Shown: piece after piece, positions 15,137 through 52,068 of the stretch
Layout of the letters: every line of letters begins with the position of its first letter
Numbering within the stretch: the first letter of the stretch is position 1
NCBI GenBank assembly: GCA_014804445.1
Contig: JAAUZU010000008.1
Coordinates: forward strand, 265,095-329,094
Reading direction: 5' to 3'
Length of the DNA stretch: 64,000 nucleotides
DNA from: Lachnospiraceae bacterium
GTDB lineage: Bacteria; Bacillota; Clostridia; Lachnospirales; Lachnospiraceae
Made by a program: the position numbers and the translations under genes
The notes under the pieces: generated by a model
What the model was told of the DNA's origin: nothing
The model's input: only the letters and a program-made list of their open reading frames with translations
Databases searched by the model: none

Positions 15137-15137
15137 A

Positions 15138-17451: not shown

Positions 17452-17468
17452 ATAGATGCTCCTGTTGT

Positions 17469-19526: not shown

Positions 19527-20178
19527 ATATTTCTCCCGATGTTTCCTTTTCCGGTATTAAAAGCGCAAGCAATTCGACAGGCATGGAAATACTCTTGAAG
19601 GGATATGATTTTCCTTCTTTGAATCCAAAGCCATATAAAACGCCGATGAACGCTGTACCTGCCTCCTGTGCTCCCGTAAAATCGTATAAGCTGTCACCGA
19701 CGACAACCGCCTTTTGGGCGGACATGTTTTTCATCGCTTTCTGAATTGTCATGCATTTGGTGTAGGATTCATCCTCGTCCATGCCGACGATTTGGTCAAA
19801 ATAGGCATATAGGGAAAAGTTTTTTAATACCGCCTCAGCAATACTCTGCTTTTTTAAAGTTGCCACTCCCAGTTTGAAGCCCTCCCGACGCAGTCGGCAT
19901 AATACTTCTTCCATCCCGTCATAAACCTTTGCTTCGTAAACCGCTCTTGACGCGCCGTATTCTCTATGTTTTTTGGCAGCCGCCAGAGCCGTTTGCTCAT
20001 TTAATCCGTATATTTTCCGATACATTTCCTTCGGTGGGGGACCGACGAATTTCTTTAAATCCGCTTCCGGTATCGGAGTCAGTCCCAGTTCCTTTTCCGC
20101 GTACCGGACGCTGTGAAAGATTCCCGCCGAGGTATCCAGCAGGGTTCCGTCCAAATCGAAAATAATTGCATCCATCAT
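19519..20178 (-). CDS. HAD-IA sugar-phosphate phosphatase (Gph-like)
   Basis: 219 residues. Motif I is IIFDLGTLL-like (DLDGTLLDTS near residue 8), motif II lies in LGVATLKK, and motif IV is VVVGDSLYDFTGA near 165; length and order fit phosphoglycolate-phosphatase-like enzymes. Lying between the aldolase and the HAD/Rossmann gene, next to a CMP-sugar-synthetase-like gene, it may dephosphorylate a keto-acid sugar phosphate before activation. Overlaps its upstream neighbour by 4 bases (ATGA). Confidence 0.8.
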   Translation of the reverse strand: MMDAIIFDLDGTLLDTSAGIFHSVRYAEKELGLTPIPEADLKKFVGPPPKEMYRKIYGLNEQTALAAAKKHREYGASRAVYEAKVYDGMEEVLCRLRREGFKLGVATLKKQSIAEAVLKNFSLYAYFDQIVGMDEDESYTKCMTIQKAMKNMSAQKAVVVGDSLYDFTGAQEAGTAFIGVLYGFGFKEGKSYPFKSISMPVELLALLIPEKETSGEIYG

Positions 20179-22980: not shown

Positions 22981-23037
22981 GCTGTCTACTCCTTTATTTC
23001 AGCTTTTTTATCCTTAAACACATGACCATAAGCTATC

Positions 23038-23700
23038 CTAAGTAAGTTCGCCCATCATTCGCTTATAGTTATATATCGCATCTGCCAGATAAAAATCCTC
23101 TTCCGTATTGATATCACATGCCTCAATCTCTGTTATTGGCATTAAAAACGGATTATCACCTATTCTTCGTCCATGCTCTATTAAAGTTTTTCTATAAACA
23201 TACAGACCGCAGCTTTCCTTATACAACTTATCCAAATCCTGTGTTCGCGGAATATTCTCCAACTCATAATTATAGGGCTTATTTTCTTTCCACAAAAACT
23301 CTTGTAGCGGTCTTACCGAAAAGGCAGAATCATATCCCTCACAATTCACCTTTCGAATTCCTTCTTCGATACTCTCTGCCCTTAAAAAAGGCGCTGTTGC
23401 ATGTGTCAATACATAAGTATCGGCATCTATCAGTTGTGCAAAACTTTTTAGCACCTCATTAAATTTGGTATCAGGTAGGTCATAGTAGGGATCTCTTTGC
23501 AGGAACCTAATCCCATCAGGAATATAAGGCCTTATCATGTCACTACTGCAATACACATAGATTTCATCTACATTAGTCACTTTTTGTAAAGTTGTCAGAA
23601 TATATGTAATTAGTGGTTTTCCGTTTGTAAATGGTTTGACATTTTTCATCGATAGACGTTCACTATTCAATTTAATCGGAACAAAGGCTACTGTTTTCAT
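23038..23700 (-). CDS. CMP-acylneuraminate synthetase-like cytidylyltransferase
   Basis: 220 residues, the usual NeuA length; GAGG before ATG. PIKLNSERLSMKNVKPF near residue 8 is the signature CTP-binding loop of the family (P-x-R-x-x-S-x-R-x-x-x-K-N with Lys for the first Arg), and VLTHATAPFLRAESIEEG near 95 is the conserved core. It probably activates an acidic nine-carbon or related keto sugar with CTP. Whether the substrate is a sialic-like or a different keto-deoxy acid cannot be told from sequence. Confidence 0.75.
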   Translation of the reverse strand: MKTVAFVPIKLNSERLSMKNVKPFTNGKPLITYILTTLQKVTNVDEIYVYCSSDMIRPYIPDGIRFLQRDPYYDLPDTKFNEVLKSFAQLIDADTYVLTHATAPFLRAESIEEGIRKVNCEGYDSAFSVRPLQEFLWKENKPYNYELENIPRTQDLDKLYKESCGLYVYRKTLIEHGRRIGDNPFLMPITEIEACDINTEEDFYLADAIYNYKRMMGELT

Positions 23701-23725
23701 GCTATATTACCACCTCGCTTTTATG

Positions 23726-25753
23726 TCAAAACAACTCATTAACGCCTACAACCCGGTAAATGTGTTCGTGTTCTGCTATCTGTTTTTTAATCTGCTGTTC
23801 CAGATGCGGTATCGCAATAATGCACAAATCGGCGCGGGCAGCATACATAGCTTCGTGCCGTAATACCGGAATTCCTGCAATCTCGTCCTCCTGCAGGTAA
23901 TTATCTATCAAGGCAACTGTTTGGCTGCGTATCTCAGGGATCTGCAACAAAACTTCTCTGGTAATGGCTCCTGCGCCATAGATGATTAAGTGTTGCCCCT
24001 GAATTTCCTTTTGCAGATCCTGATTGCCTCTGTCAATACGCTGCTTCATCCAATAAAGTTGTGTATATTGCTGACCTTGTATCGAATTGGCAATGGGAGT
24101 TTCCCCGTACAACATCAAGTAGGCTCTTTCAAACTCATGTAGATAGTCCGTCAGTTTTTCGTCACCCTTGTCCGCCAGATTGTTTAGCAGGATACGGAAT
24201 GCCCGGGTGCGGTTTCCCGGCATATCGGACACTTCTTTGATATATTTCCGCCCAAGAGAAATATCCGCATACTGTTTCAGGCATGCAACAGCTTCTTGGG
24301 TATCGCCTTCATCGTCTGCCACAAATCCTCTGAAAAGGTAGAATGCGCCGATATCCTGTCGGGGAAAAGTCTTGATTTCCGCAGCATGTCCGGTGCGGTA
24401 GAGTGCATTCAGCAGGATGCCCGCATCGATATCATCCGCCAACAGCCGCGTACTGTTTTTTACAATACACAAATCCCGCAGAATTGCCGCGTTTCTTATT
24501 TTCTCAGTGACTTCCTTTTTAAATGCGTCATAGTTCGTCGGAAGATTTCGGATTTCATCGGCTAGAAATTGAATGTCAAGCTTGGATTTAACGTTGTAAT
24601 CAATCAAAATCAGCATTCTCTGCAGAAAAAAATCTTCGCATCGTCTGCGAATCACTTGTTCCCAGCTTCCCGTTTCCTGAGCAGTAATATCTGTCTTGAA
24701 ATTTGCATAGGAAGTATCTGTTTCCTTCGGAAATCTCCCCTTTTGGTAAAACTCCTGAAAGAGGTATTCCGTGGTTTCACAAATTTTTTCAGCAGTATTT
24801 TCCTGTTCCGCCAGCAGATATTGTTTATACTGTTGTGAACATTTGATTCCGTCCGGCAGAAAGGCTTTAACATCCTGATAAGGAATTACCGCGCCCGATG
24901 GCAGAATTTCTTCCCGAATCGTATTGATGACTTTCCATCTTAAATCATAAACATCCTCATTGGGCAGCCCATCCAGAACGATTAATCCCTTGTCCGCAGC
25001 ATATGCCCCCACAAATGCGGTAGTATGCATGCAGATCACCGTGTGACACAAATCAATGAGTTCCTTTAAGTCCCTGTGTTCCTGCAACAGAATCAGATTG
25101 GAGGGCAGTTCGTCCTCTGCTTCCCTTCTGATGATTTCATACAAATGCAACGTATTTTGATGTGTGATTACTGTATCCCCGGGCAGAAATCTGGGCTTAA
25201 TCCACAGTTCATAGTCAGGGCAGGCGTTTGCAATTTCAATCAGGGTTCTTGCCAGTTCCCTTTTTCCCTGTTCGCCAAACGGGTAGTGACCGCTGTCGAT
25301 AAAAAGAAGCATGTTTTTTTCCGAAACGTCTGCCGTCACGCTGTCGTATTTGGGTTCTCCGATTTCTATATAGGAATACTGTAAATACCTGTCGTATTCG
25401 GAGGTTACGGTAGCAATGGACGGAACAAAGCAAAAATCGCCACCCCATGAGATCTGGCGGTTGATCAGATAATTGTGGGTGAAAATAGGTTTCTCTGTAA
25501 ACAATATATTTTTTTTGAACAGAAAGGCTGCTGCCACCGTTGAAGCAAAAATAAAATCACAAGCAGCAATAACCCTGTCGTCCAACTCATCATAGGGAGC
25601 GATTGCAATGCTTTTATCGAACCAGCGCAATACATTTTTTTCGTAATACGGGGCGTATATGGTGACTTCGTGCCTTCTTTCCGTATATGCCTTTGCGATT
25701 CTTGCCAGAGACTGGTTGGCAGCATCTTTTTCCGTAATCATCAATATCTTCAT
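23726..25753 (-). CDS. GT-B-like glycosyltransferase with C-terminal Rossmann-like module
   Basis: 675 residues; GAGGAT before ATG. Residues 1-340 begin MKILMITEKDAANQSLARIA and contain LWIKPRFLPGD and VICMHTTAFVGAYAADKG, as in CDP-glycerol/polysialyltransferase-like GT-B enzymes, a suitable partner for a CMP-sugar donor. Residues 350-560 are helical. From about 577, HLIIYGAGAITREVL starts the recurring GxGxxx module. The start overlaps the stop of the 25750 gene by 4 bases. Confidence 0.65.
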   Translation of the reverse strand: MKILMITEKDAANQSLARIAKAYTERRHEVTIYAPYYEKNVLRWFDKSIAIAPYDELDDRVIAACDFIFASTVAAAFLFKKNILFTEKPIFTHNYLINRQISWGGDFCFVPSIATVTSEYDRYLQYSYIEIGEPKYDSVTADVSEKNMLLFIDSGHYPFGEQGKRELARTLIEIANACPDYELWIKPRFLPGDTVITHQNTLHLYEIIRREAEDELPSNLILLQEHRDLKELIDLCHTVICMHTTAFVGAYAADKGLIVLDGLPNEDVYDLRWKVINTIREEILPSGAVIPYQDVKAFLPDGIKCSQQYKQYLLAEQENTAEKICETTEYLFQEFYQKGRFPKETDTSYANFKTDITAQETGSWEQVIRRRCEDFFLQRMLILIDYNVKSKLDIQFLADEIRNLPTNYDAFKKEVTEKIRNAAILRDLCIVKNSTRLLADDIDAGILLNALYRTGHAAEIKTFPRQDIGAFYLFRGFVADDEGDTQEAVACLKQYADISLGRKYIKEVSDMPGNRTRAFRILLNNLADKGDEKLTDYLHEFERAYLMLYGETPIANSIQGQQYTQLYWMKQRIDRGNQDLQKEIQGQHLIIYGAGAITREVLLQIPEIRSQTVALIDNYLQEDEIAGIPVLRHEAMYAARADLCIIAIPHLEQQIKKQIAEHEHIYRVVGVNELF

Positions 25754-28071
25754 GACTCATCCTCAAAAAAATGAAATATCTTTACCATTCCGTCTGCCAG
25801 TTCTGTGATTTGCGAAATAAGCTGCCGGCAAATCAAAGAATGCATAACAGAACAAACGCATACAGCTTCTTTCAGCGAAGCATCCGGTCTGACGACAGGA
25901 ATCCCGCCGATAAAGGAACCCCAGATATCAGCGTTGTTGTCAACAATCTTTTCAATACGATCAAGAATCCCCAGCACAGCAGCGGCCTGCAACGTCCTTC
26001 TTCCGCCGTCGCCGGCGCCAATCAGCACAATGGCTGCGTCCTTGGCAAAAACAAGTGCCTGCTCTAATACAAGCATATGGGCATACCCGAAATACATCAG
26101 GGACGGCGCTGTTTTTCTGATATAAAAAGCAGGGTCTGCAAGGACGTTCATTCCGGAATTCCACAATACTTCCGGTGTGTGAAAACGGGAATAGTAATAG
26201 GTCTCGCCTTCCCGCTTTCTCTTTTCCAATGCCTCGGGTCTTATCACCGGCGTCATGGTGTTTGCCCCGAAATTCTGGTCATACTTCATGACCTGAAATA
26301 ATTCTGCCTCCCGAAAAAGCGGCATGGTGAGCAGGCGCTCGACAGGCCGGGCAAGCTTCATCGGAGGTATCCTCTTTAAATAGGATTTCGTGGGCACCAG
26401 ATCATAATAAATCTGCTGAAAAGAGAGGATTCCTTCCTGCAATTCTTTGGCACCGGCAATTTGCTCGTGGGGATAGGGAATTTCCTGCGTTACCGGTATG
26501 GCGAATTCCCCCTCCATGCGGTAACCGACCGTCGTTCCCATGGTTGACAGTAAAAATAATTCCATCAGCCGCGGAAAATATGTTTTCCCATATTTTTCTT
26601 CTGCGCCGTATCTTCCGATATAGGAATTCACATTCCATACAAATTCGTCTTCCGTGAAGTCCGAGCGGTAAAAAAACAACAGATGCTTCAGACGGCAATC
26701 CATCCCGTGGTGCGAAAAAAAGCGGTCCAGCATTCTCTGCATACTGCCGCGCCATCCTAAGTCCAAAGTAATGGCATTCCCATACATTTCCATCTGTTCT
26801 AAATATTTTTGGAGGCTTTGAGAGTGGATTTTGTTTCTTGTACGAATTTCCTGCAAAATCGATTCCTCTGACAAAAATGCCAGAAGATCTTCGTAAACCG
26901 ATTTTTCTCTGCCGGCTATGTTCTTCATAGAGATTGTGCTCATATCAAAATAGGGCAGGTACTCTGTGCACAAATCCGAAACCATCAGAATATCCAGCAC
27001 ATTTCGCACTGACATGTTATGGGTACTCATCAGATATTCAATATCTTTGACGGACGCTTTTTCCAAAGTGGAGCGGAGCAGCGCGATTCTTGACACATAC
27101 AAAGGCTTTATTGAAAATGCTGTCTTTCTGTGGCCGGCTGCCTGTTGTAAGAGTCTGGAAAGGAACTCGCCTTCCCGCATAAAAGGGCGTATTATCTGTA
27201 TTTCTTCTTTTTCCGCCACGTCCAAAACCCATTCCGCAGCATACGTAAATAACGGGCCTAACACCATGGCGCCGATTTCATACCATAAGCCTGCATTCTC
27301 CGGTCTGTTCCCGGCTGCAAGAAGCCGCATGCTTAAAAGCTCGCCGATGGGATTTCCGAATATTTCTTCTTCATAGTATAGAAACGGATGCCTGAAATAC
27401 GCATCGCTTTGCAGCATATAGGGAAGCGTATGAATCCCCAGTTTTTCGGGAATCCCGATGTCGCTGTAAAAATTGTCTCCCACATGAAGCAGTTCTTCCG
27501 GCAGAATCCCTCTTTCACGGAGGACAGTCTCGTAGAGACCTTTTCTCCTCTTTGAGGTATGGTGCTCACAGGACACATAGATTGCATCGACGCATCCATC
27601 GTCGAAGCCGTTCTCCCGAAGCAGCATTCGGATTGTTTCAGATGGCAGATACATATCGGAAATCAAAAGTATGCTCATTCCGGAATCATGCAAGGATTTT
27701 ATGGCGGTACATATTTCCGGATTTAAAAAGATGCTTTCCTTTTCACAGAATATCTCCCATGCCATCAGTTCATCCCGATTGCCATATATAGCGGGAAGCT
27801 TGCAGTAAATATCGTTGAGTGTCACTTCGCCGTTTTTGCATGGCTCGTTTGCCTTTCTGGCAAACCTCTCGGCACGTATCCTTGCACTTTTCCAGATTTC
27901 CGCATCCATGCCGTCAGGGAACAGTTCTGGTTTCCACTGATACATTCTGGCAAAAACATCCTGCGGTTTATTGACAGTACGAAAAATAACAGTATCAAAA
28001 ATATCAAAGCTTACAGCTTTTATTTCATGTGTTCTGATTGTCTCTTCCAGTTTTTGACTTATTTTTTTCAC
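25750..28071 (-). CDS. Large HAD-domain protein with C-terminal Rossmann-like module
   Basis: 773 residues, GTG start at 28071 with AGAGGG 6 bases upstream. Residues 18-30 are SFDIFDTVIFRTV, the HAD nucleophile motif, and LLHVGDNFYSDIG near 196 is motif IV. The middle shares FMREGEFLSRLL and DLGWRGSMQRML with the 17469 and 52069 proteins. AAIVLIGAGDGGRRTL near residue 680 starts the recurring Rossmann-like module, here at the C-terminus instead of the N-terminus. Second gene of the leftward operon. Confidence 0.7.
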   Translation of the reverse strand: MKKISQKLEETIRTHEIKAVSFDIFDTVIFRTVNKPQDVFARMYQWKPELFPDGMDAEIWKSARIRAERFARKANEPCKNGEVTLNDIYCKLPAIYGNRDELMAWEIFCEKESIFLNPEICTAIKSLHDSGMSILLISDMYLPSETIRMLLRENGFDDGCVDAIYVSCEHHTSKRRKGLYETVLRERGILPEELLHVGDNFYSDIGIPEKLGIHTLPYMLQSDAYFRHPFLYYEEEIFGNPIGELLSMRLLAAGNRPENAGLWYEIGAMVLGPLFTYAAEWVLDVAEKEEIQIIRPFMREGEFLSRLLQQAAGHRKTAFSIKPLYVSRIALLRSTLEKASVKDIEYLMSTHNMSVRNVLDILMVSDLCTEYLPYFDMSTISMKNIAGREKSVYEDLLAFLSEESILQEIRTRNKIHSQSLQKYLEQMEMYGNAITLDLGWRGSMQRMLDRFFSHHGMDCRLKHLLFFYRSDFTEDEFVWNVNSYIGRYGAEEKYGKTYFPRLMELFLLSTMGTTVGYRMEGEFAIPVTQEIPYPHEQIAGAKELQEGILSFQQIYYDLVPTKSYLKRIPPMKLARPVERLLTMPLFREAELFQVMKYDQNFGANTMTPVIRPEALEKRKREGETYYYSRFHTPEVLWNSGMNVLADPAFYIRKTAPSLMYFGYAHMLVLEQALVFAKDAAIVLIGAGDGGRRTLQAAAVLGILDRIEKIVDNNADIWGSFIGGIPVVRPDASLKEAVCVCSVMHSLICRQLISQITELADGMVKIFHFFEDES

Positions 28072-28115
28072 CGTATTCCCTCTACATAACGCAACAAAGT
28101 AACACGTCTCTTAAT

Positions 28116-29327
28116 TTATTGTGTCATAAATCTATATACCTTGCTTCCGACAGAGATTTTTCTGCAGTCTGCAGCCTTATTTTCATTCTCACATGTCGGC
28201 AGGTTATCCAGCATATATCCGAGAGATTCCATTGCGTTCTCATTAATACAACAGCCGCCAAGAGCACGCCTTACAAAGTCCTTTTGGTGAATTTCTTCCC
28301 AAAAAGCGCGATCTGCCTTTGACGAAAACAATTTTATTTCACGTTTTGTTCCATTTGCAAAATCATATTCCATAAGCCGCCTGCCGTTACCGGCGGCAGA
28401 ATAGATTTTTTGGTTGTAACAAAAGCTCGAGAAAAAAGAATTATCGGAACCTTTAGAGCCCTTTTCCCTGTCCAGAAGTTCTTCCCGCAGTATCTGCCCG
28501 GTCGTAGTGTCAATTTTAAACCCTTTGTTTTTTCCGAATGGGAACAAATAGATGAAAGCGTTCTGAATCTGCATGGGATAAAATTCCGCTACTTCTGTTC
28601 CCTGAATCGGTAAAGAAAAAACCTTTGTTGCATCTGCCAAAAGATTTATATCTCTCTTTGATACAGTGCCGTCTCCTGATAGAAGGTACAAGAAATTTCC
28701 CTCACGGCATATACCGCAAAATTTGCACGGGTGTCCTGTGGCAGATGTATGTATAATATGTGTACGCTGTGAAAGACTATCAAAGACAACAATTGCATCT
28801 GCGCACACACAAGGAAGTATCAGTCTGCCTTCCACTACTTCAAATGTCTCAAAGTAGTTCCAACTGCTTGCCCGGTTTCTTTCGATTTCATCGACCCAAT
28901 CGTCGAAACAGGAAAAAGCGCCGGTCAGGGTGTCATAACACAGGATACCCGGATATTTGTTGGGCAGAAAATATACCTTATCACCAATGGCAGTAATATT
29001 ACAAAATTTTCCGCCTTGCCGTTTCTGCCGAATAGTTTTGCCCTCTAACGAAGTCGGAATCTGTATTTTTTGGAAAGTATTGTATTTTAAGTCATATACC
29101 GCTATTTCAGCGGCTCGTTGTGGAGAAAAAAACAATTTTTCATTACACATGACTACGGACGAATACAGATTTATTTGCGTAAAGGCTTCATTGGGAAATA
29201 TGCCTGCCAGCTCAACGTGTCCATTTTCCTTGCATATTTTGAACAGGGCATTATAAAAGTATTCGGGAAACCATAAATTTTGCCCATCATCACATATTCT
29301 TGAGAAAATCAGAGGCTCGTTCAGCAT
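28116..29327 (-). CDS. Beta-propeller-like protein heading the left operon
   Basis: 403 residues; GGGAG 8 bases before ATG. It shows repeated short strand-turn-strand units such as NEKLFFSPQ, GDKVYFLPN, EGRLILPC and NAFIYLFPFG, which suggests a kelch/WD-type propeller. No signal peptide. The tail ENAMESLGYMLDNL resembles the tail of the 30865 protein (ESEMASLDSYISLLG), which heads the opposite operon, so the two are distant paralogues in mirror positions. It is the first gene downstream of the strong promoter in the invertible segment. Function unknown. Confidence 0.65.
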   Translation of the reverse strand: MLNEPLIFSRICDDGQNLWFPEYFYNALFKICKENGHVELAGIFPNEAFTQINLYSSVVMCNEKLFFSPQRAAEIAVYDLKYNTFQKIQIPTSLEGKTIRQKRQGGKFCNITAIGDKVYFLPNKYPGILCYDTLTGAFSCFDDWVDEIERNRASSWNYFETFEVVEGRLILPCVCADAIVVFDSLSQRTHIIHTSATGHPCKFCGICREGNFLYLLSGDGTVSKRDINLLADATKVFSLPIQGTEVAEFYPMQIQNAFIYLFPFGKNKGFKIDTTTGQILREELLDREKGSKGSDNSFFSSFCYNQKIYSAAGNGRRLMEYDFANGTKREIKLFSSKADRAFWEEIHQKDFVRRALGGCCINENAMESLGYMLDNLPTCENENKAADCRKISVGSKVYRFMTQ

Positions 29328-29407
29328 TTGAAAATCTCCCTTCCCTGTTTCCTATATATCCAATTATTGATTAGATATTGAATCCACAGTGCAATTGGCA
29401 AAACACT

Positions 29408-29427
29408 TTCGCAGATTATCTTAATCT
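29408..29427. repeat. Left inverted repeat of the invertible segment
   Basis: TTCGCAGATTATCTTAATCT, exactly complementary to 30820-30839. It contains an internal dyad (AGATTA, 3 bases, TAATCT on the other strand), as expected for a site where two recombinase protomers bind. It lies 80 bases before the left operon's first codon. Confidence 0.9.
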
Positions 29428-29443
29428 CTGAAAGGGTCTGCAA
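29415..29443 (-). promoter_or_regulatory. Weak promoter-like element overlapping the left repeat
   Basis: On the minus strand TTGCAG (29438-29443), 17 bases, GATAAT (29415-29420). The -10 is part of the inverted repeat itself and the -35 lies inside the segment. A matching element exists at the right repeat, so inversion would exchange the -35 boxes. It may give low basal expression. Confidence 0.35.
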
Positions 29444-29484
29444 GTCAGATATTTTAAAATAACCGCTATTTTTATCGCGTGTAT

Positions 29485-29512
29485 TTGCTCGTTCTACTTA
29501 AATTATTATACT
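29485..29512 (+). promoter_or_regulatory. Candidate promoter of the recombinase gene
   Basis: TTGCTC (29485-29490), 16 bases, TATACT (29507-29512). It reads toward the recombinase. Its -10 overlaps the -10 of the opposing strong promoter, so the two should compete for polymerase. Confidence 0.45.
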
Positions 29513-29533
29513 TTCAACAGTTCTATTTGTCAA
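29505..29533 (-). promoter_or_regulatory. Perfect-consensus outward promoter of the switch
   Basis: On the minus strand TTGACA (29528-29533), a 17-base spacer, TATAAT (29505-29510): both hexamers and spacing are exact consensus. Transcription would start near 29498, cross the left repeat and enter the left operon at 29327. If the segment is inverted the same promoter would face the right operon at 30865. Confidence 0.85.
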
Positions 29534-29552
29534 TTGAATGGCAAAGGCAGAA

Positions 29553-29572
29553 TTTGTAAGTACATTTACAAA
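29553..29572. repeat. Small dyad before the recombinase gene
   Basis: TTTGTAA (29553-29559) and TTACAAA (29566-29572), a 7-bp dyad with a 6-base gap between the promoters and the recombinase start. It could be an operator for recombinase control or an arm-binding site. No direct evidence for either. Confidence 0.3.
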
Positions 29573-29661
29573 AAACTTCAAATAAATTATCGGCAAATTC
29601 CCCCCATTACAAAAGAGAAATTCTCATTAGGGGTCAAAAAAATGGTCAGGAGGAAAAAAGA

Positions 29662-30774
29662 ATGCCCAGACGAGGAGAAAACATCAGAAAAAGAAAGGAC
29701 GGTCGCTGGGAAGGCAGATACTCTGTAGTAGAACCGCTATCCGGCAGGCATATCACCCGTTCCGTGTATGCAAGAACTTATGGGGATGTAAAGGATAAAC
29801 TGGCAGAGGCGAAACGCACTGCCCTAAATCCCCCAAAAGAAAAGGTAACAGAAGTTTATTTTGGTACAATTGCCAAAGAATGGCTTGCCACCGTTCATAT
29901 CGAAAAAAAGCACGCAACCTATATAAAATACCGCACCGTCTATGAAAAACATATCCTGAAAAAACTGGAAGGTGTTTTGGCTTCGGAGCTAAACAGTGCA
30001 ATTATGGAAGATATATTTCAGGTTGGAGAACAGGAATCACTGTCTTCCAGTCTGCAAAAAAGCATTTCCTGCGTACTGAATCAGATTTTTGCTTATGCAG
30101 CTTCGCACTATTGCATTAAGCTGCAGAAATATTCCCGCCCCAGGCGCAGAACAGCAGCAAAACCTGTTGAAATCCTAAATCAGACGGAACAGACAAAGCT
30201 GCTAAAGCATTTGTACGATGGAATGGATATTCATAAGCTTGGTATCATCATCTGTATTTCTACCGGACTGCGTCTGGGAGAAATCTGTTCCCTAAAATGG
30301 AAGGATATTGATTTCGAAGAAAAAATACTGTATGTGAACACAACTGTGCAAAGAATAGCCGTTGAAAATTCCGAGACAAAAACCATTCTTTTAGAAGGAA
30401 CGCCGAAAAGTATTTTTTCTAAACGGGAAATACCACTGTCAGATGAGCTGGTAAGTCTTCTGGCTTCTTATCATTGTGCAACGGGAGAATACGTTGTCGG
30501 AAGGAAAAAACCTATGGAACCCAGAACATACCAGAACAAATTTCAAAAATATCTTCGCGTTGCGGAAGTGAAAAAGAAAAACTTTCATGCGCTCAGGCAT
30601 ACCTTTGCCACAAACTGCATTAACAGCGGCGTGGATGCCAAAAGCCTCAGTGAAATTCTAGGGCATTCCGACGTCAAAATCACACTGAACCGTTATGTGC
30701 ATCCTACTATTGAAACGAAACGTCAGTATATGAATTCTTTGTGCTCCATTTATGGTCAATTTGTGGGTCAATAA
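29662..30774 (+). CDS. Tyrosine recombinase/integrase of the invertible segment
   Basis: 370 residues, ATG 29662 behind AGGAGG (8-base gap). The N-terminus (MPRRGENIRKRKDGRWEGRY) is the arm-type DNA-binding domain common in Firmicute integrases; residues 65-150 are the core-binding domain. Catalytic residues are visible: Arg in STGLRLGEICSLKW, H-x-x-R in HALRHTFATN, His in LGHSDVKITL and the nucleophile Tyr in LNRYVHP. The gene lies inside its own inverted repeats with a terminator right behind it. No phage, conjugation or excisionase genes are near, which favours a DNA-inversion role over element mobility. Confidence 0.9.
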   Translation: MPRRGENIRKRKDGRWEGRYSVVEPLSGRHITRSVYARTYGDVKDKLAEAKRTALNPPKEKVTEVYFGTIAKEWLATVHIEKKHATYIKYRTVYEKHILKKLEGVLASELNSAIMEDIFQVGEQESLSSSLQKSISCVLNQIFAYAASHYCIKLQKYSRPRRRTAAKPVEILNQTEQTKLLKHLYDGMDIHKLGIIICISTGLRLGEICSLKWKDIDFEEKILYVNTTVQRIAVENSETKTILLEGTPKSIFSKREIPLSDELVSLLASYHCATGEYVVGRKKPMEPRTYQNKFQKYLRVAEVKKKNFHALRHTFATNCINSGVDAKSLSEILGHSDVKITLNRYVHPTIETKRQYMNSLCSIYGQFVGQ

Positions 30775-30780
30775 CAGATG

Positions 30781-30816
30781 GCAAATAAGGCATTTCCTTA
30801 GGTTTGCAACTTTTTT
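30781..30816 (+). terminator. Rho-independent terminator behind the recombinase
   Basis: GCAAATAAGG (30781-30790) pairs with CCTTA and TTTGC (30796-30807, two-base bulge) around a 5-base loop, followed by AAC and six T residues (30811-30816). It ends 3 bases before the right repeat, so it shields whichever operon lies on this side from recombinase readthrough. Confidence 0.7.
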
Positions 30817-30832
30817 GTTAGATTAAGATAAT
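30804..30832 (+). promoter_or_regulatory. Weak promoter-like element overlapping the right repeat
   Basis: TTGCAA (30804-30809), 17 bases, GATAAT (30827-30832). The -35 lies in the terminator's 3' arm and the -10 in the inverted repeat. It would start near 30839, just ahead of the right operon's ribosome binding site. It is the counterpart of the element at 29415-29443. Confidence 0.35.
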
Positions 30833-30839
30833 CTGCGAA
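30820..30839. repeat. Right inverted repeat of the invertible segment
   Basis: AGATTAAGATAATCTGCGAA, the exact reverse complement of 29408-29427, with the internal dyad AGATTA-AGA-TAATCT. It ends 25 bases before the first codon of the right operon. Confidence 0.9.
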
Positions 30840-30864
30840 GCTCTTAAAACAAGGATATTAGACA

Positions 30865-32034
30865 ATGGAAGAAAAATATGATTTGAATTTCATGGATGCA
30901 TATCTGGATAAAGAATATATATATGCCGTAAGCCGCGAATCCAATATTTTCTTTAGGGCGAAGCGAGACAATGGTTATAGTGTGGAAATACTGGGCGTTA
31001 TAAATGGGTTCCGAAATATATATACAGGAAAAATATATGCAGTGCAATATTATCAGAACTCTTTATATATGTTTGCGGATAGTACGTATGAGGTTGCAAG
31101 ATATGATTTTGAGTCCCGGAAAATTTCTTATTATTGTCCGGCTGAGCAGGAGGAAGGCTTTGATATAGTGCGTGGAAGCTGCCGAATCGGAAATGAGGTT
31201 TGGATTTTACGGGATTCTTTTGTCGGAAAACTTTGTGTCTTTTCATTGGAAGATTGCAGTTACCGATTCTTTGATTTGGATATTTCGATTTTGATAAACA
31301 GCATACGACAGAAGAACGTAAAACGTGTATCAAAAGAAAATGTATGTCCGGTCGGGAATAAAGTGTGGCGCTGTATTCCGGGAACAAATTTTTTATGCGC
31401 CATCGATGTAACCACAAAACGGGTGGAGCTTCATAAAGTCGAATCGGATATAGAGATTTTTACAATCAGTCATGATGCGCAAGGGTTTTATTTAATCTCC
31501 ATCTTTGGAGACTATGTCATACAATGGGACGAGAATAGGGGAGTAATAGACAAAAAGGTCATAAATGGTGGGGAAAAAACGTTTAAGGCGTTTCGGGATA
31601 TCTTACATGTGAATGGAGGTTATATATTGCTGCCCAACACCTCTGAGCATATTAAATTTTTGTCAGAGGCGAAAGGAATGATAGAAGAATGTGAGTTACC
31701 CTCTCAGTTTCACCGGATTGGAAGTGCGAAAGGATTGTTTTTTCATTACCTTCTGGAAAATGATAAACTGCTGTTGTTTCCTTTTGGCGGGAACGGTTTG
31801 ATTGAAATGGATACCAATACATTGCAATCGAAGTATCATCCTATCCGTATTTTGAAAGAAGAATGTATAAAAGTTCTGTTGGCTGAAAATAAGGCAGTGA
31901 CAGAAAGTGAAATGGCTTCTCTTGACAGCTATATCAGTTTACTCGGCAGCGATTACTGTATGAGAAAAAAGGAATACAGTCCTGATGGAGCAATAGGCAG
32001 ACGGATTATGAAAACAATAGAAGGAAGCGTATGA
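30865..32034 (+). CDS. Beta-propeller-like protein heading the right operon
   Basis: 389 residues; AAGGA 9 bases before ATG. Strand-rich repeats such as QNSLYMFAD, GNEVWILRD, GNKVWRCIPG, NGGYILLPN and NDKLLLFPFG suggest a propeller. No signal peptide. It is a distant paralogue of the 28116 protein, which heads the opposite operon, with a similar C-terminal tail. Both flank the switch directly, so each glycan programme begins with a propeller of its own. Function unknown; a scaffold or sugar-binding role is possible. Confidence 0.65.
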   Translation: MEEKYDLNFMDAYLDKEYIYAVSRESNIFFRAKRDNGYSVEILGVINGFRNIYTGKIYAVQYYQNSLYMFADSTYEVARYDFESRKISYYCPAEQEEGFDIVRGSCRIGNEVWILRDSFVGKLCVFSLEDCSYRFFDLDISILINSIRQKNVKRVSKENVCPVGNKVWRCIPGTNFLCAIDVTTKRVELHKVESDIEIFTISHDAQGFYLISIFGDYVIQWDENRGVIDKKVINGGEKTFKAFRDILHVNGGYILLPNTSEHIKFLSEAKGMIEECELPSQFHRIGSAKGLFFHYLLENDKLLLFPFGGNGLIEMDTNTLQSKYHPIRILKEECIKVLLAENKAVTESEMASLDSYISLLGSDYCMRKKEYSPDGAIGRRIMKTIEGSV

Positions 32035-33155
32035 GAGACAAAGAAATACTTGTTACCCGTTCCTCAATGCCGCCATACGAGGAATATATAGAGGCAATCC
32101 GGCCGCTTTGGGATAGTCATTGGATTACCAATATGGGGAGATATCACAAAGAACTGGAAAAAGAGCTGAAAGAATATCTCAAGGTGCCGGAAGTATCATT
32201 GATGGTAAATGGGCATATGGCGTTGGAATTAACGATTCAGGCTATGGGGTTTCCGGCTGGGAGCGAAGTGATTACAACGCCTTTTACCTTTATTTCTACA
32301 ACACATGCAATTGTCAGAAACGGGCTGGAACCTGTTTTTTGCGATATAAAGGAGTCAGATGGAACCATTGATGAAGAAAAAATAGAAGCATTGATTACCG
32401 AAAAGACAGTTGCCGTTGTACCGGTTCATGTTTATGGGAATATCTGCAATGTAGAAGCCATACAGAGGATAGCAGATAAGTACAATTTAAAAGTGATTTA
32501 CGATGCAGCGCATGCTTTTGGTGAAACGTATAAGGGGGCAGGTGTGTCAAATTTTGGCGATGCGTCTGTATTTAGCTTTCATGCCACGAAGGTTTTTAAC
32601 ACGATTGAAGGAGGGGCAGTCACTTTTCAGAACCATGTGTTATATGAAAAGTTATTTGATTTAAAGAATTTCGGCATACGGGGCGAGGAACTGGCTTGCG
32701 AAGTGGGCGCAAATGCCAAGATGAACGAGTTTGCGGCAATTATGGGTTTATGCAATTTAAAGTATATCGGAGAAGAGATTGAGAAGCGCAGACGGCGGAC
32801 AGAATACTATAGGGAACTTTTGGCTGATGTATCCGGCGTAAAATTGTTTCAGCCGGATGAAGATATCGAATATAACGCCGCCTATTTGCCAATCATGATA
32901 GATTCGGGAGACTTCGGCTGTACAAGAGACGAGCTGTTTGCCTATTTAAGGGAAAACAAAATCAAGGCGCGAAAATATTTTTATCCCCTTATTTCAAATC
33001 AGGTTTGCTATAGAAAAAATGGCAAAGGCAGAGCAGCGGCTTTAGAGACAGCAGAGAAAATGTCCGAGCGTATTTTGACATTGCCGCTGTACGCAGATTT
33101 AGATTTTGACATTATGGATGAGATTGTGGATTTAATCAAACAGAAAAGAAAGTAG
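32031..33155 (+). CDS. DegT/DnrJ/EryC1 sugar aminotransferase 1
   Basis: 374 residues, overlapping the previous gene by 4 bases. Sequence features are those of PLP-dependent nucleotide-sugar aminotransferases: TTPFTFISTTHAI, DAAHAFGE (PLP Asp) and SFHATKVFNTIEGG with the Schiff-base Lys near residue 190. It would convert a keto sugar to an amino sugar, using glutamate. A second, distinct family member follows two genes on, so the glycan may hold two amino groups or two amino sugars. Confidence 0.85.
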   Translation: MRDKEILVTRSSMPPYEEYIEAIRPLWDSHWITNMGRYHKELEKELKEYLKVPEVSLMVNGHMALELTIQAMGFPAGSEVITTPFTFISTTHAIVRNGLEPVFCDIKESDGTIDEEKIEALITEKTVAVVPVHVYGNICNVEAIQRIADKYNLKVIYDAAHAFGETYKGAGVSNFGDASVFSFHATKVFNTIEGGAVTFQNHVLYEKLFDLKNFGIRGEELACEVGANAKMNEFAAIMGLCNLKYIGEEIEKRRRRTEYYRELLADVSGVKLFQPDEDIEYNAAYLPIMIDSGDFGCTRDELFAYLRENKIKARKYFYPLISNQVCYRKNGKGRAAALETAEKMSERILTLPLYADLDFDIMDEIVDLIKQKRK

Positions 33156-33164
33156 GAGCGGAAA

Positions 33165-33890
33165 ATGGCACTAGGTGCAATGCAGCCGTATTTATTTCCC
33201 TATTTGGGATATTTTCAGTTGATGGATTGTGTGGAGACATATGTATTTTGCGGAAATCTTCAATACATAAAACGGGGATGGGTCAATCGGAACCGAATTT
33301 TTACAAATATGAGGGAGAGTGAAACGTATAGCTTTTCTTTTTCTGTTGTAAAAGACGATTATACAAAAAATATCAATCAAAGATATTACGGTAATTTAAA
33401 AGAAGACGGTGACAAACTGAAGCGTATTCTGTTCCAAGTTTATAAGAAAGCAGTGAATTTTGAAGAGACCTATGGGCTTGTAGAAGATATCTTATCTTTT
33501 CAAAATGATAATGTTGCCTATTTTAATATGAATGCCAATTATCAGATTGCAAAATATTTGGGCATTCAAACGAAGATAACTTGTGCGGATATGATAGAGG
33601 ATCCTGTTTTTCAGGAGAATTTTCAACAGTTGGACTATGAAGGCAGAGTCATTTATATCTGTAACTATTTTAAGGAAAAGACTTATGTCAATGCAATCAA
33701 TGGGATGTCGTTATATCACAGAGATTATTTTGCGGCGGAAGGTATCGATTTGAAATTTATCAAAATGGATGAAATTGTGTATCCTCAGCTTTCAAAGCAA
33801 TTTGTTTCCCACTTATCCATTTTGGATGTGCTCATGCACAATAATGTGCAGGATGCGCAAAGCTTATTGCGGAGATATCAATTAGTGTGA
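33165..33890 (+). CDS. WbqC family protein
   Basis: 241 residues, the family's usual size; AGGAG 6 bases before ATG. The N-terminus MALGAMQPYLFPYLGYFQL and the KRGWVNRNRI segment are diagnostic of the WbqC family. Family members occur beside DegT aminotransferases in O-antigen and capsule clusters and have been proposed to modify amino sugars; the exact reaction is unsettled. Here it sits between two DegT genes. Confidence 0.85.
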   Translation: MALGAMQPYLFPYLGYFQLMDCVETYVFCGNLQYIKRGWVNRNRIFTNMRESETYSFSFSVVKDDYTKNINQRYYGNLKEDGDKLKRILFQVYKKAVNFEETYGLVEDILSFQNDNVAYFNMNANYQIAKYLGIQTKITCADMIEDPVFQENFQQLDYEGRVIYICNYFKEKTYVNAINGMSLYHRDYFAAEGIDLKFIKMDEIVYPQLSKQFVSHLSILDVLMHNNVQDAQSLLRRYQLV

Positions 33891-33905
33891 GAAAAGGAGA
33901 ACGCC

Positions 33906-35048
33906 ATGGTCAGTTTGTTTTCGCCTGTGTTTTATGTGGATGAATGTCTGGAAAATATAAGGGAATGTCTGGAAAAGGGATGGGCAGGACCGGGGGTAAA
34001 AACAGCCGAATTTGAAAAGGAATGGGGAAAATATACAGGATATGAAAACGCGGTCTTTCTGAACAGTGCAACGGCCGGATTGGAATTGACCTTTAAAAGT
34101 ATGAAAGAGTTATATAGGTGGCGGGATGGGGACGAGATTATCACGACTCCCATCACCTTTATCTCAACGAATCATACGATAATGGATGCCGGGCTGAAAC
34201 CGGTTTTTGCGGATGTAAACGACACGCTCTGTCTGGACCCACAGTCCGTGCGGGACAGAATCACCACCAGAACAAGAGCGGTTGCATTTGTCGGAATAGG
34301 GGGAAATACCGGAGATATCAAAGAAATCGCCCAAATCTGCAGGGAGCATGATTTGAAATTGGTCTTAGACGCGGCGCATATGTCCGGCACAAGGATAAAA
34401 GATACCGGGCTGGAAGATATTGTCGATGTTTCCATCTATTCGTTCCAATCGACGAAAGTACTGCTGACGGCGGATGCGGGAATGGTATGCTGCCATGACG
34501 GGGGAATCGCAAAAAAGGTCCGGACAAAAGCATGGGTCGGCATGGATAAAACGCGTACCCCATGGTCCGATGAAAATACGCAGAGATGGTACTTTGATAT
34601 CGTTGATTTCGGGGGGAGTTATTTTGGAAATGATATCATGGCGGCGATTGCGTTGGCGCAGTACAGGCATTTGGATTCCGATATAGAGCGGCGGCATAAG
34701 ATTGCAGACAGATACAGGGAAAAGCTGGCCGGGTGCGATAAGCTGGAGTTTATCAGAGTTCCCGAAGACTGCTATTCTGCACAGTGGCTGTTTCAGATTG
34801 TCGTTCCTAAGCGCGATGAGCTGATGGCATTTCTGGAATCGAAAGAGATTTTTGCCGGACTGCACTATTTGGATAATACACAGTTCAGGCATTATCGTTA
34901 TGCAAAAGGGACCTGCCCGAATGCGGATTACTATAGCAGGCATATTCTGTCTTTGCCATTTCACCTGAGATTGACGGAAGAAGATATAGACTGGGTTGCT
35001 GAGAGCATCATTGAATTTTTGGAGGGTTGTGCAAGTGACAAGGCATGA
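33906..35048 (+). CDS. DegT/DnrJ/EryC1 sugar aminotransferase 2
   Basis: 380 residues; AGGAG 6 bases before ATG. TTPITFISTNHTIMD, LVLDAAHMSGTR and SFQSTKVLLTADAG (Lys near residue 185) mark a second PLP sugar aminotransferase, clearly diverged from the one at 32031. Its last 14 bases overlap the GTG start of the transketolase gene, giving tight coupling. Confidence 0.85.
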   Translation: MVSLFSPVFYVDECLENIRECLEKGWAGPGVKTAEFEKEWGKYTGYENAVFLNSATAGLELTFKSMKELYRWRDGDEIITTPITFISTNHTIMDAGLKPVFADVNDTLCLDPQSVRDRITTRTRAVAFVGIGGNTGDIKEIAQICREHDLKLVLDAAHMSGTRIKDTGLEDIVDVSIYSFQSTKVLLTADAGMVCCHDGGIAKKVRTKAWVGMDKTRTPWSDENTQRWYFDIVDFGGSYFGNDIMAAIALAQYRHLDSDIERRHKIADRYREKLAGCDKLEFIRVPEDCYSAQWLFQIVVPKRDELMAFLESKEIFAGLHYLDNTQFRHYRYAKGTCPNADYYSRHILSLPFHLRLTEEDIDWVAESIIEFLEGCASDKA

Positions 35049-35811
35049 GGAAAAGGTTAGACAATTAAAGGAGAGAATGCTGGAGGTCGCCTATAAAAAT
35101 CAGAGGGGCTTTTTGGCGAGTTCCTTTTCCATACTTGATATTCTGGTCGTATTGTATTACGAAGTAATGCAGGCTGACGGCCATGGCACCTGTGTGGATG
35201 AGTTTGTCCTAAGCAAAGGACATGCCGCGCTGGCATTGTACGCAATATTGGAGGATAAGCATGTTCTGAAAAACGGCGAACTGGAACACTGGGGGAAATA
35301 TCAGTCGCAGTTATGTTTGATGGCGGAAAGGAAACTGCCGGGCGTTTTGTTTTCAACGGGTTCGCTGGGACACGGATTGCCGGAGGCGGTGGGACTGGCT
35401 TATGCGAAGAAGCTCCGGAAAGAAGACGGCAGGGTGTTTGTGCTGGTGGGCGACGGTGAGTTGGACGAGGGGACGAATTGGGAAGCAATTCTGGCGGCGT
35501 CCAGAATGAAGCTGGACAATCTGGTATGTATCGTTGACAACAATAAAAGTGCTGCTTCCGCACTGGTAGAGAAGCCTGAGGAGGCGCAAAGATTTGAACG
35601 GTTCGGACTCCTGACAGAGTGTGTGAATGGGCATGATGAACATGCACTGAGAAAGGCACTTCAGAAAAAAGCTGACAGGGTGATGCTGGTCATCGCGGAT
35701 ACGATAAAGGGAAATGGCTGCGCTGCAATGGAAGCCAATCCGGCGCTATGGCATTCCAAGGCTCCCAATGAGCAGGAGTATATTTCTATGCTGGAGGAGG
35801 TTCGAAGATGA
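35035..35811 (+). CDS. Transketolase-like protein, N-terminal (TPP-binding) subunit
   Basis: Start taken at GTG 35035 with GGAGG 9 bases upstream, not the longer frame from 34996. 258 residues. LSKGHAALALYA, STGSLGHGLPEAVGLA and VGDGELDEGTNWEA with IVDNN are the TPP/Mg motif (GDG-x24-NN type) of the N-terminal half of transketolase. With the next gene it makes a split enzyme, often found in nucleotide-sugar clusters, where it may pass a two-carbon unit to a sugar precursor. Confidence 0.85.
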   Translation: MTRHEEKVRQLKERMLEVAYKNQRGFLASSFSILDILVVLYYEVMQADGHGTCVDEFVLSKGHAALALYAILEDKHVLKNGELEHWGKYQSQLCLMAERKLPGVLFSTGSLGHGLPEAVGLAYAKKLRKEDGRVFVLVGDGELDEGTNWEAILAASRMKLDNLVCIVDNNKSAASALVEKPEEAQRFERFGLLTECVNGHDEHALRKALQKKADRVMLVIADTIKGNGCAAMEANPALWHSKAPNEQEYISMLEEVRR

Positions 35812-36689
35812 TTCAGAGCTTTGCAGAGGAAATGAAAGCGATTTTAAAAGAGGACGAAAACAGCATCCTGATACTAATGGGGATTGGGCGGTACATATTC
35901 AGGGAAAGCAAAGAGGATAGTCCCCAGAGAGTGATGGATATCGGAATTATGGAACCTGCCGCAATGGGGATTGCAGCGGGAATGGCGGCGAAAGGGCTTA
36001 TTCCTTTCCTATATACATGGGCGCCGTTTTTGGTTGAACGGGCATATGAACAGCTAAAGCTCGATTTCGGCTGCCAGAATTTAGGCGGTAATTTTATCGG
36101 GGCAGGCGCTTCCTATGATTTGGCTGCGTTCGGAGATTCCCACTACTGTCCTTCGGATGTGCCGATTCTAAAGCAAATCAGAAATATGCAGATTGTAGTT
36201 CCGGGAACCGCCGATGAATTTGCAGCGCTGTTCAGGGCTGCATATAACAATGGCTGTCCGACCTATTATAGATTATCAGACAGAGTGAATGATAAAAGCA
36301 ATGCAGTAGAATTCGGAAAGGCTGCTGTGCTCAGGAAAGGCGCGCGCGCAACCGTTATCGTTGCCGGTCCGATGTTACATGATATCTTGCCGATTGCAGA
36401 AGATTATGATGTTACGGTTTTGTATTATACAACAATTGCGCCGTTCGACAGAGAGGCATTGCGAGAGAATATAGCGGGAAACCGGGTTATGATAGTGGAA
36501 CCCTATAATAAAGGAGTCATTTTGGAAGAGGTGGTCGAAGCACTGCCGGGGTATTCTTTAAAAATAGAAACAATTGGATTTGAAACAAATAGTGTTTGTA
36601 ATCTGGGTGAATATTCTGAAAATATATCGGACTGGGGATTTGATAAAGATACGGTTAAGTTGAAATTAGAGAGGCTGTTAGAAGAATAG
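35808..36689 (+). CDS. Transketolase-like protein, C-terminal (pyrimidine-binding) subunit
   Basis: 293 residues, overlapping the N-terminal subunit by 4 bases with GGAGG before ATG. MDIGIMEPAAMGIAAGMAA supplies the conserved Glu that activates TPP; YTWAPFLVERAYEQLKLD and RNMQIVVPGTADEFAALF follow the PYR and C-terminal domains. It should pair with the product of 35035. Confidence 0.85.
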   Translation: MIQSFAEEMKAILKEDENSILILMGIGRYIFRESKEDSPQRVMDIGIMEPAAMGIAAGMAAKGLIPFLYTWAPFLVERAYEQLKLDFGCQNLGGNFIGAGASYDLAAFGDSHYCPSDVPILKQIRNMQIVVPGTADEFAALFRAAYNNGCPTYYRLSDRVNDKSNAVEFGKAAVLRKGARATVIVAGPMLHDILPIAEDYDVTVLYYTTIAPFDREALRENIAGNRVMIVEPYNKGVILEEVVEALPGYSLKIETIGFETNSVCNLGEYSENISDWGFDKDTVKLKLERLLEE

Positions 36690-36700
36690 GAGTATCGTTT

Positions 36701-37921
36701 ATGGTAGAAGATTTAAGCCTTATAAAGGACTATTCCATTTTGGAAAAAAGAAAAAATATCATTTGCGGTTCTAAGGACTATGTCAGAAAAGCGGGCAAAT
36801 TATTAGTCAGAGCGCATATCGCAATAGAAAAAATATATTGTGATGATGAAATAACTGACGATGAATTGCAGAATATCGAAAAAACGGCATTTTCTGATAT
36901 TTTTGTTCTGGATTCCATAGAGAAATATAATGTGATTTATGCAGAGAAGAATCAAGAACAAATGGAACAAGGTATCAATCAGTTAGACCAAAACAAAAAA
37001 GGACATATTTATACCTACTGCGGCTTATATATTACGTTGTCAATTCATGCGGATAAAAACGTGCATATTCTGGAAGAAATGACATGCATGAATGATATGA
37101 ATATGGCAATGGGGACGTATGATTTGGCAGCAAGGTGGATGAGAAGTCTTCGCTGGGTGGAAGAGTCAGGGATTCCTTTAATCTTATATGCAATGCCTAA
37201 GACCGGTACACAGGCTATGAAAGCGACATTGAACCAATATGGTTATGAACATACCTATGTCCATTTTTTAAATATAAACACGCCGCTGGATAAACAGTTT
37301 TATCACTATTATGGTGAAAAAATACCTTGTCTGGCCGAGCTTTTGCATGATTCGGAATATGTAAAGAAATATCACTTAAACGTGTTAAAAGAGAAAAAAA
37401 TCAAAATTATTACCAGTGTCCGGGAGCCGATTGCCAGAAACTATTCCATGATATTCCAGGCAATAAAAAATTGGGGGCCTTATCCGCTGGTGCGGAAATC
37501 CAATGGTAATTTTGCACAAGGTGTAATTGATTATCTGGAGTATTGCAGTTCTTCTACATGGGATTGGTTTGAGGATGAAATAAAAGAGGTATTTGGTATT
37601 GATATCTTCCGGTATCCGTTTGACAAGGAAAACGGATACTGCATCATAAAAACGGATAAGGTAGAGATTTTTCTGTACAGACTGGAAAGCAGCAGGAAGT
37701 TAGGCAAAGCGCTGGGAGAATTTCTGGGAGCGGAGAAGAGCATCGATATGCTTACTTTCCATGAGGCAAGCAAGGAAGAATACCGGTTTGTTTATGCGCA
37801 GTTAAAAAATGAAATTCAGATTCCGGATGCTGTGATATCGCAATACTATGACAATGATAAAATGAGGCATTTTTACACGGAAGAAGAAATTACAGACTTG
37901 AAAAATAAGTGGAAAAGATAG
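36701..37921 (+). CDS. Sulfotransferase-like protein 1
   Basis: 406 residues; AGGAG 8 bases before ATG. Residues 10-110 look like the recurring Rossmann-like module (NIICGSKDYVRKAGKLL). From about 165, AMPKTGTQAMKATL fits the 5'-phosphosulfate-binding loop (P-K-T/S-G-T) of sulfotransferases, and SVREPIARNYSM near 240 fits the 3'-phosphate-binding motif. The C-terminus LKNKWKR recalls the NKWYS-type capsule proteins, whose activity is not established. The PAPS-making genes five genes downstream strengthen the reading as a glycan sulfotransferase. Confidence 0.7.
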   Translation: MVEDLSLIKDYSILEKRKNIICGSKDYVRKAGKLLVRAHIAIEKIYCDDEITDDELQNIEKTAFSDIFVLDSIEKYNVIYAEKNQEQMEQGINQLDQNKKGHIYTYCGLYITLSIHADKNVHILEEMTCMNDMNMAMGTYDLAARWMRSLRWVEESGIPLILYAMPKTGTQAMKATLNQYGYEHTYVHFLNINTPLDKQFYHYYGEKIPCLAELLHDSEYVKKYHLNVLKEKKIKIITSVREPIARNYSMIFQAIKNWGPYPLVRKSNGNFAQGVIDYLEYCSSSTWDWFEDEIKEVFGIDIFRYPFDKENGYCIIKTDKVEIFLYRLESSRKLGKALGEFLGAEKSIDMLTFHEASKEEYRFVYAQLKNEIQIPDAVISQYYDNDKMRHFYTEEEITDLKNKWKR

Positions 37922-37935
37922 GAGACGTTGGCTGC

Positions 37936-39141: not shown

Positions 39142-39180
39142 GGATGAGAGGTGTCTCGGCAAAGGAGGGCATGAAAAATC

Positions 39181-40608: not shown

Positions 40609-40626
40609 TGACAAAGAGGGAAGACA

Positions 40627-41931: not shown

Positions 41932-41958
41932 AGACCTGATTCGGCGGAGGTTCTAAGA

Positions 41959-42867: not shown

Positions 42868-42868
42868 C

Positions 42869-44704: not shown

Positions 44705-44738
44705 TCGCTGCAGATAAGATGGTGAAGGGAGAAAGTTT

Positions 44739-45767: not shown

Positions 45768-45802
45768 ACATCGAACCGTATGGAAAGAGGGAGAAACAGG
45801 AT

Positions 45803-47574: not shown

Positions 47575-47587
47575 AGGAGGAAGTGCC

Positions 47588-48331: not shown

Positions 48332-48365
48332 AGAATGAAAAAATCTGATTGGAGAGGATTGGAAT

Positions 48366-52051: not shown

Positions 52052-52068
52052 AAAGAAAGGGATGTGCA

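Follow-up and report, generated by a model that had tools for sequence, protein, structure and literature searches.

A promoter on an invertible segment selects between outward S-layer genes in the sap locus of Campylobacter fetus, and the Hin enzyme is a serine recombinase whose switch acts on one side and works together with a repressor in trans. Here we analyzed a stretch of 64,000 nucleotides from Lachnospiraceae bacterium (assembly GCA_014804445.1, contig JAAUZU010000008.1, positions 265,095-329,094; hereafter the window, in whose numbering all positions are given), in which a small segment with inverted ends, carrying a tyrosine recombinase gene and an outward promoter, lies between two divergent operons. 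This segment is probably a self-contained invertible promoter cassette choosing between two glycan operons. Whereas sap switches genes for S-layer proteins, the operons of the window are biosynthetic.

Further described systems share parts of this arrangement. In the Salmonella Hin/fljBA switch, which is mentioned in PMC13418256, the invertible segment likewise encodes the recombinase that turns it, with an outward promoter and a flagellar antigen as output, whereas the window holds a tyrosine recombinase, two operons and glycan genes. RecV of Clostridioides difficile is, like the window enzyme, a tyrosine recombinase acting on small inversions, with flagellar and cell-wall switches as output, but it serves several separate switches (PMC5903667), whereas the cassette encodes the enzyme itself and its sites were found as one pair only in the genome. 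Clostridia inverton group 139, associated with tyrosine invertase group 35, comprises 33 invertons, 32 of them in Clostridia, and two of its members changed orientation over culture passages (PMC11892184). It resembles the window in host class, in its short inverted repeats and in the associated tyrosine-type recombinase; the two examples described are of around 255 bp with invertases nearby, whereas in the window the gene lies inside a 1.4-kb segment between two operons, a comparison that goes by the description of the group (PMC11892184). Finally, at csrA-associated TldR loci a hin gene accompanies an inverting FliA-dependent promoter region of around 120 bp; there, as in relatives of the cassette, an inverting promoter lies 5' of a nuclease-dead TnpB protein, the differences being the serine Hin, the short inversion and the csrA linkage (PMC13418256). 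Among top-ranked titles and abstract openings, in a search in which subscription literature is thinly covered, we found none on a promoter that switches between flagellin-glycan operons on its two sides. A self-inverting promoter with its recombinase is of a known kind, to which the window would add a tyrosine recombinase cassette placed two-way between flagellum-linked glycan operons.

The anatomy of the cassette (Table 1) agrees in most points with an initial annotation of the window. The inverted repeats described there are exact over 20 bp, at 29408-29427 and 30820-30839, with 1,432 bp between their outer edges; the recombinase gene is the sole open reading frame (ORF) of at least 100 aa between them, and the perfect TTGACA-17-TATAAT promoter, read on the minus strand from 29533 to 29505, is the only 12/12 match in the 64 kb, with 0.01 expected from shuffles. 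Inverted repeats enclosing an outward promoter are a feature of invertons of the tyrosine recombinase class. In the 3.58-Mb genome the repeat gave 2 matches in total at up to 3 mismatches, with no third copy; about 1e-7 perfect pairs of that kind are expected by chance in the flanks, and a chance repeat was discarded. The annotated distances from repeat to first codon were also recovered, with 80 bases on the left (29328-29407) and 25 on the right (30840-30864), and the ribosome-binding sites of both first genes sit outside the repeats; the counts of 11 and 21 genes held too, both operons being tight. The -10 end of the promoter is presently 178 bp from the first codon of the left operon, and a scripted inversion of the window placed the promoter 123 bp ahead of the right first gene, leaving both operons intact because the repeats lie outside the genes. 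The terminator annotated at the cassette end, by contrast, was not confirmed: the terminator scanner lists nothing at 30781-30816, and the imperfect hairpin found there folds with ordinary energy (z -0.63, with 47 of 200 shuffles folding equally well). The right end also carries a weak promoter of 9/12 (30803-30832).

The cassette was compared with its relatives. One contig scan gave 48 loci, of which the 16 best public ones were used; the best 13 of the 48 are titled Lachnospiraceae (eleven), Clostridia (one) and Schaedlerella arabinosiphila (one). Locus L010, of the named strain Schaedlerella arabinosiphila DSM 106076, has the repeats, the promoter and the recombinase. A search of the genus found a recombinase relative at E <= 1e-60 in 36 of 138 genomes, with 52 places listed; setting aside the window and a duplicate of locus L008, 40 of the remaining 50 were compared, giving 57 loci together with the 16 public ones and the window. 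A repeat pair, judged by a repeat score of our own, is present in 42 of the 57, and these include 16 with a 12/12 promoter and 23 with one of at least 11/12. At 60% or more recombinase identity there are 15 loci including the window, one of which, L014, lacks its left end because the contig stops there; of the 14 with both ends, 11 combine repeats with an outward promoter of 12/12, whereas the other 3 have no repeats and no such promoter.

Evidence of recombination between the ends comes, first, from the spacers. The dyad of the family, TTTCGCAGA-N9-TCTGCGAAA, was seen in 38 of the 42 loci with a repeat pair. A first count, with identical spacers in 35 of 38 loci, was partly circular because it began with loci from a repeat search whose score rises with left-right identity, and it was redone by searching each end separately by the arms alone (site of at least 14/18) in the 53 loci with both sides covered. 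A site was found on both sides in 33 of these, and the 9-bp spacer was the same left and right in 30 of the 33 and 1-2 bases off in the other 3; between loci, spacers differ on average at 5.2 of the 9 positions. The observed left-right fit was reached by none of 10,000 permutations, and the identity persisted at stricter arm cut-offs (26/29 loci at 15/18, 20/23 at 16/18). Such identity fits recombination between the two ends, by which it would be expected.

Both orientations of the cassette were found when related genomes were compared, a check that the initial annotation had suggested. Where a 12/12 promoter and a TnpB-like neighbor occur together, the promoter faces that neighbor in four loci (L009, L013, L017 and L095) and points away from it in five (L010, L011, L015, L019 and L020). 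Two of them, L017 and L019, have cassettes that are 80% identical and lie reversed beside a shared operon (75% and 84% identical). Regarding the sides served, a mechanical call that included small ORFs assigned the right side alone to 20 of the 42 loci, the left side alone to 8, both sides to 7 and neither side to 7, so that a two-way placement is uncommon in the relatives, the window being one of the 7.

The enzyme itself appears, by its residues, to be catalytically complete. Nothing in its sequence suggests a dead recombinase, which the initial annotation had named as evidence against a switch: the R, K, HxxR, H and Y residues are all present (Table 1) and are invariant in the 12 sequences aligned, from which L008 and L017 were excluded. 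Among solved structures it is closest to the 'Int protein' entries 6en0, 6emy and 6emz, which we take to be the Tn1549 integrase. In an ungapped match to 6emy, a residue that is F in that chain aligns with R344; the lone tyrosine of the motif in the window protein, Y345, comes directly after it. A serine invertase was discarded, as the enzyme belongs to the PF00589 tyrosine family; the cassette thus departs from Hin-type switches in the class of its recombinase and shares with them the position of its gene within the invertible segment. Residues 1-20 are nearly invariant and presumably form a putative arm-binding domain, and two direct pairs, GGTCA-N7-GGTCA, which flank most of the gene in the close repeat-bearing cassettes, may be the corresponding arm-type binding sites; protein constraint may explain part of the downstream pair because it overlaps the codons for YGQxxGQ. 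The genome of the window holds one full-length relative of the recombinase and four weak partial matches.

Taken together, the following course of events is proposed. The recombinase would bind the two inverted dyad sites, strands would be exchanged in the 9-bp spacer, and the 1.43-kb segment, with its own recombinase gene and one strong outward promoter, would invert. In the assembled orientation the promoter would drive the left 11-gene operon, and in the flipped one the right 21-gene operon. The cell would then most likely choose which of two glycans its flagellin carries, that of the right operon being sulfated. Of the two parts of what had been annotated, promoter inversion by a tyrosine recombinase finds good support in the comparison (spacers, orientations and promoters), and mutual exclusivity of the two programmes, which we infer, is weakened by possible read-through, the 9/12 promoter and the weak terminator.

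Several observations weigh against an active two-way switch. The inner half-sites of the window are degenerate (7/9 and 6/9), whereas in the other 10 close repeat-bearing cassettes the fit is 8/9 or 9/9 on each side, and the switch could be slow or dying; with a right site of 14/18, the window is lost from the site set once 15/18 is required. The loci L008, L105 and L106, of the same genus and with recombinases 65-66% identical, lack both the repeat pair and the promoter. L017 and L019 are alike on one flank only, their other flanks being different, and opposite orientations across species could in principle stem from separate insertions. Searches with the first genes found no sister of the window locus in the other orientation in 138 genus and 397 family genomes: at E <= 1e-20 each first gene was found in 1 of the 138 genus genomes, its own, and at E <= 1e-10 the right first gene was found in 2 of the 397 family genomes, its own and one at 29% identity, the latter with no such recombinase in the 20 kb covered there. 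Present-day flipping in this organism is something that we infer from the anatomy and from other species, and the switch is perhaps slow, given the degenerate inner arms, the nearest loci of the genus without repeats and the lack of a reversed sister. In view of the weak terminator and of the 9/12 promoter at the right end, some expression of the right operon is possible in the present orientation. The putative glycans and the acceptor proposed for them are those to which gene content and position point. As regards the three loci without repeats, their cassettes are seemingly decayed, L106 retaining one poor left site.

The degenerate half-sites and the bare loci of the same genus would also be expected of a switch that was once active and is now locked, or nearly so, with the left operon ON and the right one weakly expressed from elsewhere. 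We consider this improbable, since the two 20-bp repeats have not diverged, the recombinase gene is unbroken and its product keeps the catalytic residues, and the right operon has only 25 bp of upstream DNA of its own, not enough for a full promoter. A one-sided ON/OFF switch of the left operon, in which the right one would be driven by its own weak promoter or by read-through of the recombinase gene, draws on the many related cassettes that serve a single side and on the absence of a good terminator. It is unlikely in view of the ribosome-binding sites of both first genes, which lie just beyond the repeats, and of the two operons, which are long and tight and have no other promoter of at least 11/12 able to drive a whole operon.

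It could also be argued that a small mobile element, an integrase with its ends, landed by chance between divergent operons, as the protein is related to the presumed Tn1549 integrase and homologous cassettes occur at many loci. This explanation is very improbable: no second gene of at least 100 aa lies inside, the strong outward promoter goes with the repeats in close relatives, the position beside first codons recurs, and the spacer identity fits end-to-end recombination. In the same line, no excision or transfer genes of the Tn916/Tn1549 type were found among ORFs of at least 100 aa, the only one between the repeats being that of the recombinase; a mobile element with cargo was likewise discarded. 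An invertible promoter cassette serving both operons is the explanation that we retain as probable.

Table 1. Features of the cassette, the two operons and their surroundings, in window numbering.
Feature	Positions	Strand	Details
Left operon, 11 genes	14804..29327	-	largest gap 58 bp
Left operon first gene, 403 aa	28116..29327	-	predicted beta-propeller, no Pfam match
Left recombination site	29407..29433	+	dyad TTTCGCAGA-TTATCTTAA-TCTCTGAAA; consensus fit 16/18 (outer arm 9/9, inner 7/9)
Sigma-A type promoter	29505..29533	-	perfect TTGACA-17-TATAAT (12/12), outward, toward left operon
Direct pair GGTCA-N7-GGTCA, putative arm-type site	29632..29648	+	just 5' of the recombinase ribosome-binding site; in 11/11 close repeat-bearing cassettes
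Tyrosine recombinase, 370 aa	29662..30774	+	PF00589, E 9.1e-29; R204, K249, H309xxR312, H335 and Y345 present
Second pair GGTCA-N7-GGTCA, putative arm-type site	30754..30770	+	in the last codons of the recombinase; in 10/11 close repeat-bearing cassettes (one copy in L017)
Weak imperfect hairpin followed by T6, doubtful terminator	30781..30816	+	seen on folding, not listed by the terminator scan
Right recombination site	30814..30840	-	same 9-bp spacer, inverted; consensus fit 14/18 (outer arm 8/9, inner 6/9)
Right operon, 21 genes	30865..56223	+	largest gap 40 bp
Right operon first gene, 389 aa	30865..32034	+	no Pfam match; partial weak similarity to left first gene
CysD and CysN/CysC fusion	41959..44704	+	activation of sulfate to 3'-phosphoadenosine 5'-phosphosulfate (PAPS)
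FliD-like protein	61786..63123	-	weak FliD_N and FliD_C matches

Concerning the gene content of the operons, the left one encodes HAD proteins, a cytidylyltransferase (PF02348), radical SAM, HMGL-like and SDR proteins, and a match to the DUF6716 glycosyltransferases that is under its cut-off. In the right operon there are two DegT aminotransferases, WbqC, a split transketolase, two NKWYS proteins and glycosyltransferases, as well as CysD, CysNC, a sulfate-type ABC transporter and a protein of the inositol-monophosphatase family. Positions 36701-49148 hold a self-contained set for sulfate uptake, PAPS synthesis and sulfotransfer within this glycan operon. A Foldseek search with the NKWYS model returned nothing at E <= 0.001, and a second look with VIA-align showed a sulfotransferase fold. 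From these genes, the glycan of the right operon is most likely sulfated. An Rfam search of the window gave no match.

The locus lies downstream of a flagellar cluster. On the contig upstream, FlgN, FlgK, FlgL, FliW, CsrA, FlaG, FliD and FliS were read by eye from the sequence, followed by LicD, IspD, a flagellin (PF00669, PF00700), DUF3880 glycosyltransferases and a PF01973 protein, which we assume to be of Maf type; the flagellin, DUF3880 and PF01973 proteins were identified by Pfam. A FliD-like protein within the window also belongs to this flagellar context. Of the three flagellin-domain matches in the genome, two lie on this contig, and the protein read as FlgL accounts for one of these two. 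Glycan genes adjoining flagellin, Maf-type and other flagellar genes are what is found in flagellin glycosylation loci, and because the operons lie downstream of the flagellar cluster, flagellin glycans are the most likely product, the two operons making alternative forms; it is their position that points to it. The flagellar cluster before the locus, the sulfation set of the right operon and the degenerate inner half-sites had all been overlooked in the initial annotation. The pieces of contig around the window (L126, L127, L128 and L129) contain 0.2 to 1.8% N, and the window itself none.

In the relatives, a TnpB-like protein often heads the switched operon. Of 10 neighbor proteins tested in close relatives, 8 are TnpB/Cas12f-like (PF07282, one slightly under the Pfam cut-off; in L009, L010, L011, L013, L014, L015, L019 and L020), and of the other two one is a helicase, in L012, and one an ABC-type protein that lies on the far side of the L010 cassette. 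A profile search added L095, L120 and L123, and the copy in L017 is fragmented. The RuvC acids are missing in the 8 proteins aligned, with the zinc ribbon kept (the first two motifs being judged by eye), and the last RuvC aspartate is replaced in an alignment to solved TnpB/Cas12f chains, which is the loss of RuvC residues characteristic of TldR proteins. These proteins are perhaps switched, RNA-guided regulators of the TldR type, as far as their sequences indicate. In the window genome, no match to the TnpB-like protein of L011 was found by a search that had no positive control, so that the empty answer shows nothing. Besides, in the genome of Schaedlerella arabinosiphila the RNA described below recurs with another TnpB-like operon (L147).

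An RNA 3' of the TnpB-like genes is conserved: in 11 sequences, 34 consensus pairs were found with 91% of cells paired, and 20 of the 34 changed on both sides; the fold has -20.0 kcal/mol, whereas 30 shuffles of the columns, which are a lenient control, gave around 0. The RNA is around 150-260 nt long, as seen at about 7277-7565 of L011; its 3' AATRTGCC pairs with a 5' GGCAU and is followed by TTATT and a variable stretch. Rfam gave no match to it in L010, L011, L015 and L020, with a tRNA fragment in L011 only. Possible targets were searched for with the conserved 3' stretch, giving no pattern against the cassettes (9 loci, three lengths, lowest p 0.031) and 29 matches versus 10 for the reversed control against six whole genomes, in five of the six and with at least 6 matches being the RNA itself; against the flagellin loci of eight genomes, p was 0.03-0.05 at two loci of one genome and the rest were not significant. 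These searches probably used the wrong part as guide, since AUGCC pairs inside the RNA in the later fold. The variable part behind the conserved stretch gave matches of 14/16 at two flagellin loci and not at others, with no consistent target. Separately, a 12-base stretch of the RNA, ATATGCCTTATT, recurs at the same place (position 1500 of L134 and L136) in flgD-like genes, named by eye, of the L013 and L019 genomes; as the two genes are homologous the match counts once, and the site is a possible candidate target, yet unproven.

The genes that follow the RNA were identified by eye as teichoic-acid-like and glycan genes. A protein family of 35-50% identity lies behind fliS in the window genome (L126, 7223-8608) and in cassette-linked glycan operons of the relatives (L009, L010, L011, L013, L015, L017, L019, L020, L089, L095 and L123), which hints that the operons of those relatives are also flagellar. 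A broader reading, which we put forward tentatively and hold to be less likely than its contrary, is that of a portable Lachnospiraceae module that phase-varies surface, probably flagellar, glycans together with a nuclease-dead, RNA-guided TnpB-like silencer of the competing programme; the window would re-use this module without the regulator, as an either/or selector between a non-sulfated and a sulfated flagellin glycan.

If the two-way cassette works as proposed, a gut commensal would pick between two glycan pathways, with 32 genes in all, by means of one promoter and one enzyme, and would in this way present an altered surface to host receptors, antibodies and flagellum-binding phages. The cassette family offers a ready test set, in which site and promoter are both defined and pairs of opposite orientation occur naturally, and the relatives pose a new question, namely whether switches based on tyrosine recombinases govern RNA-guided repressors.
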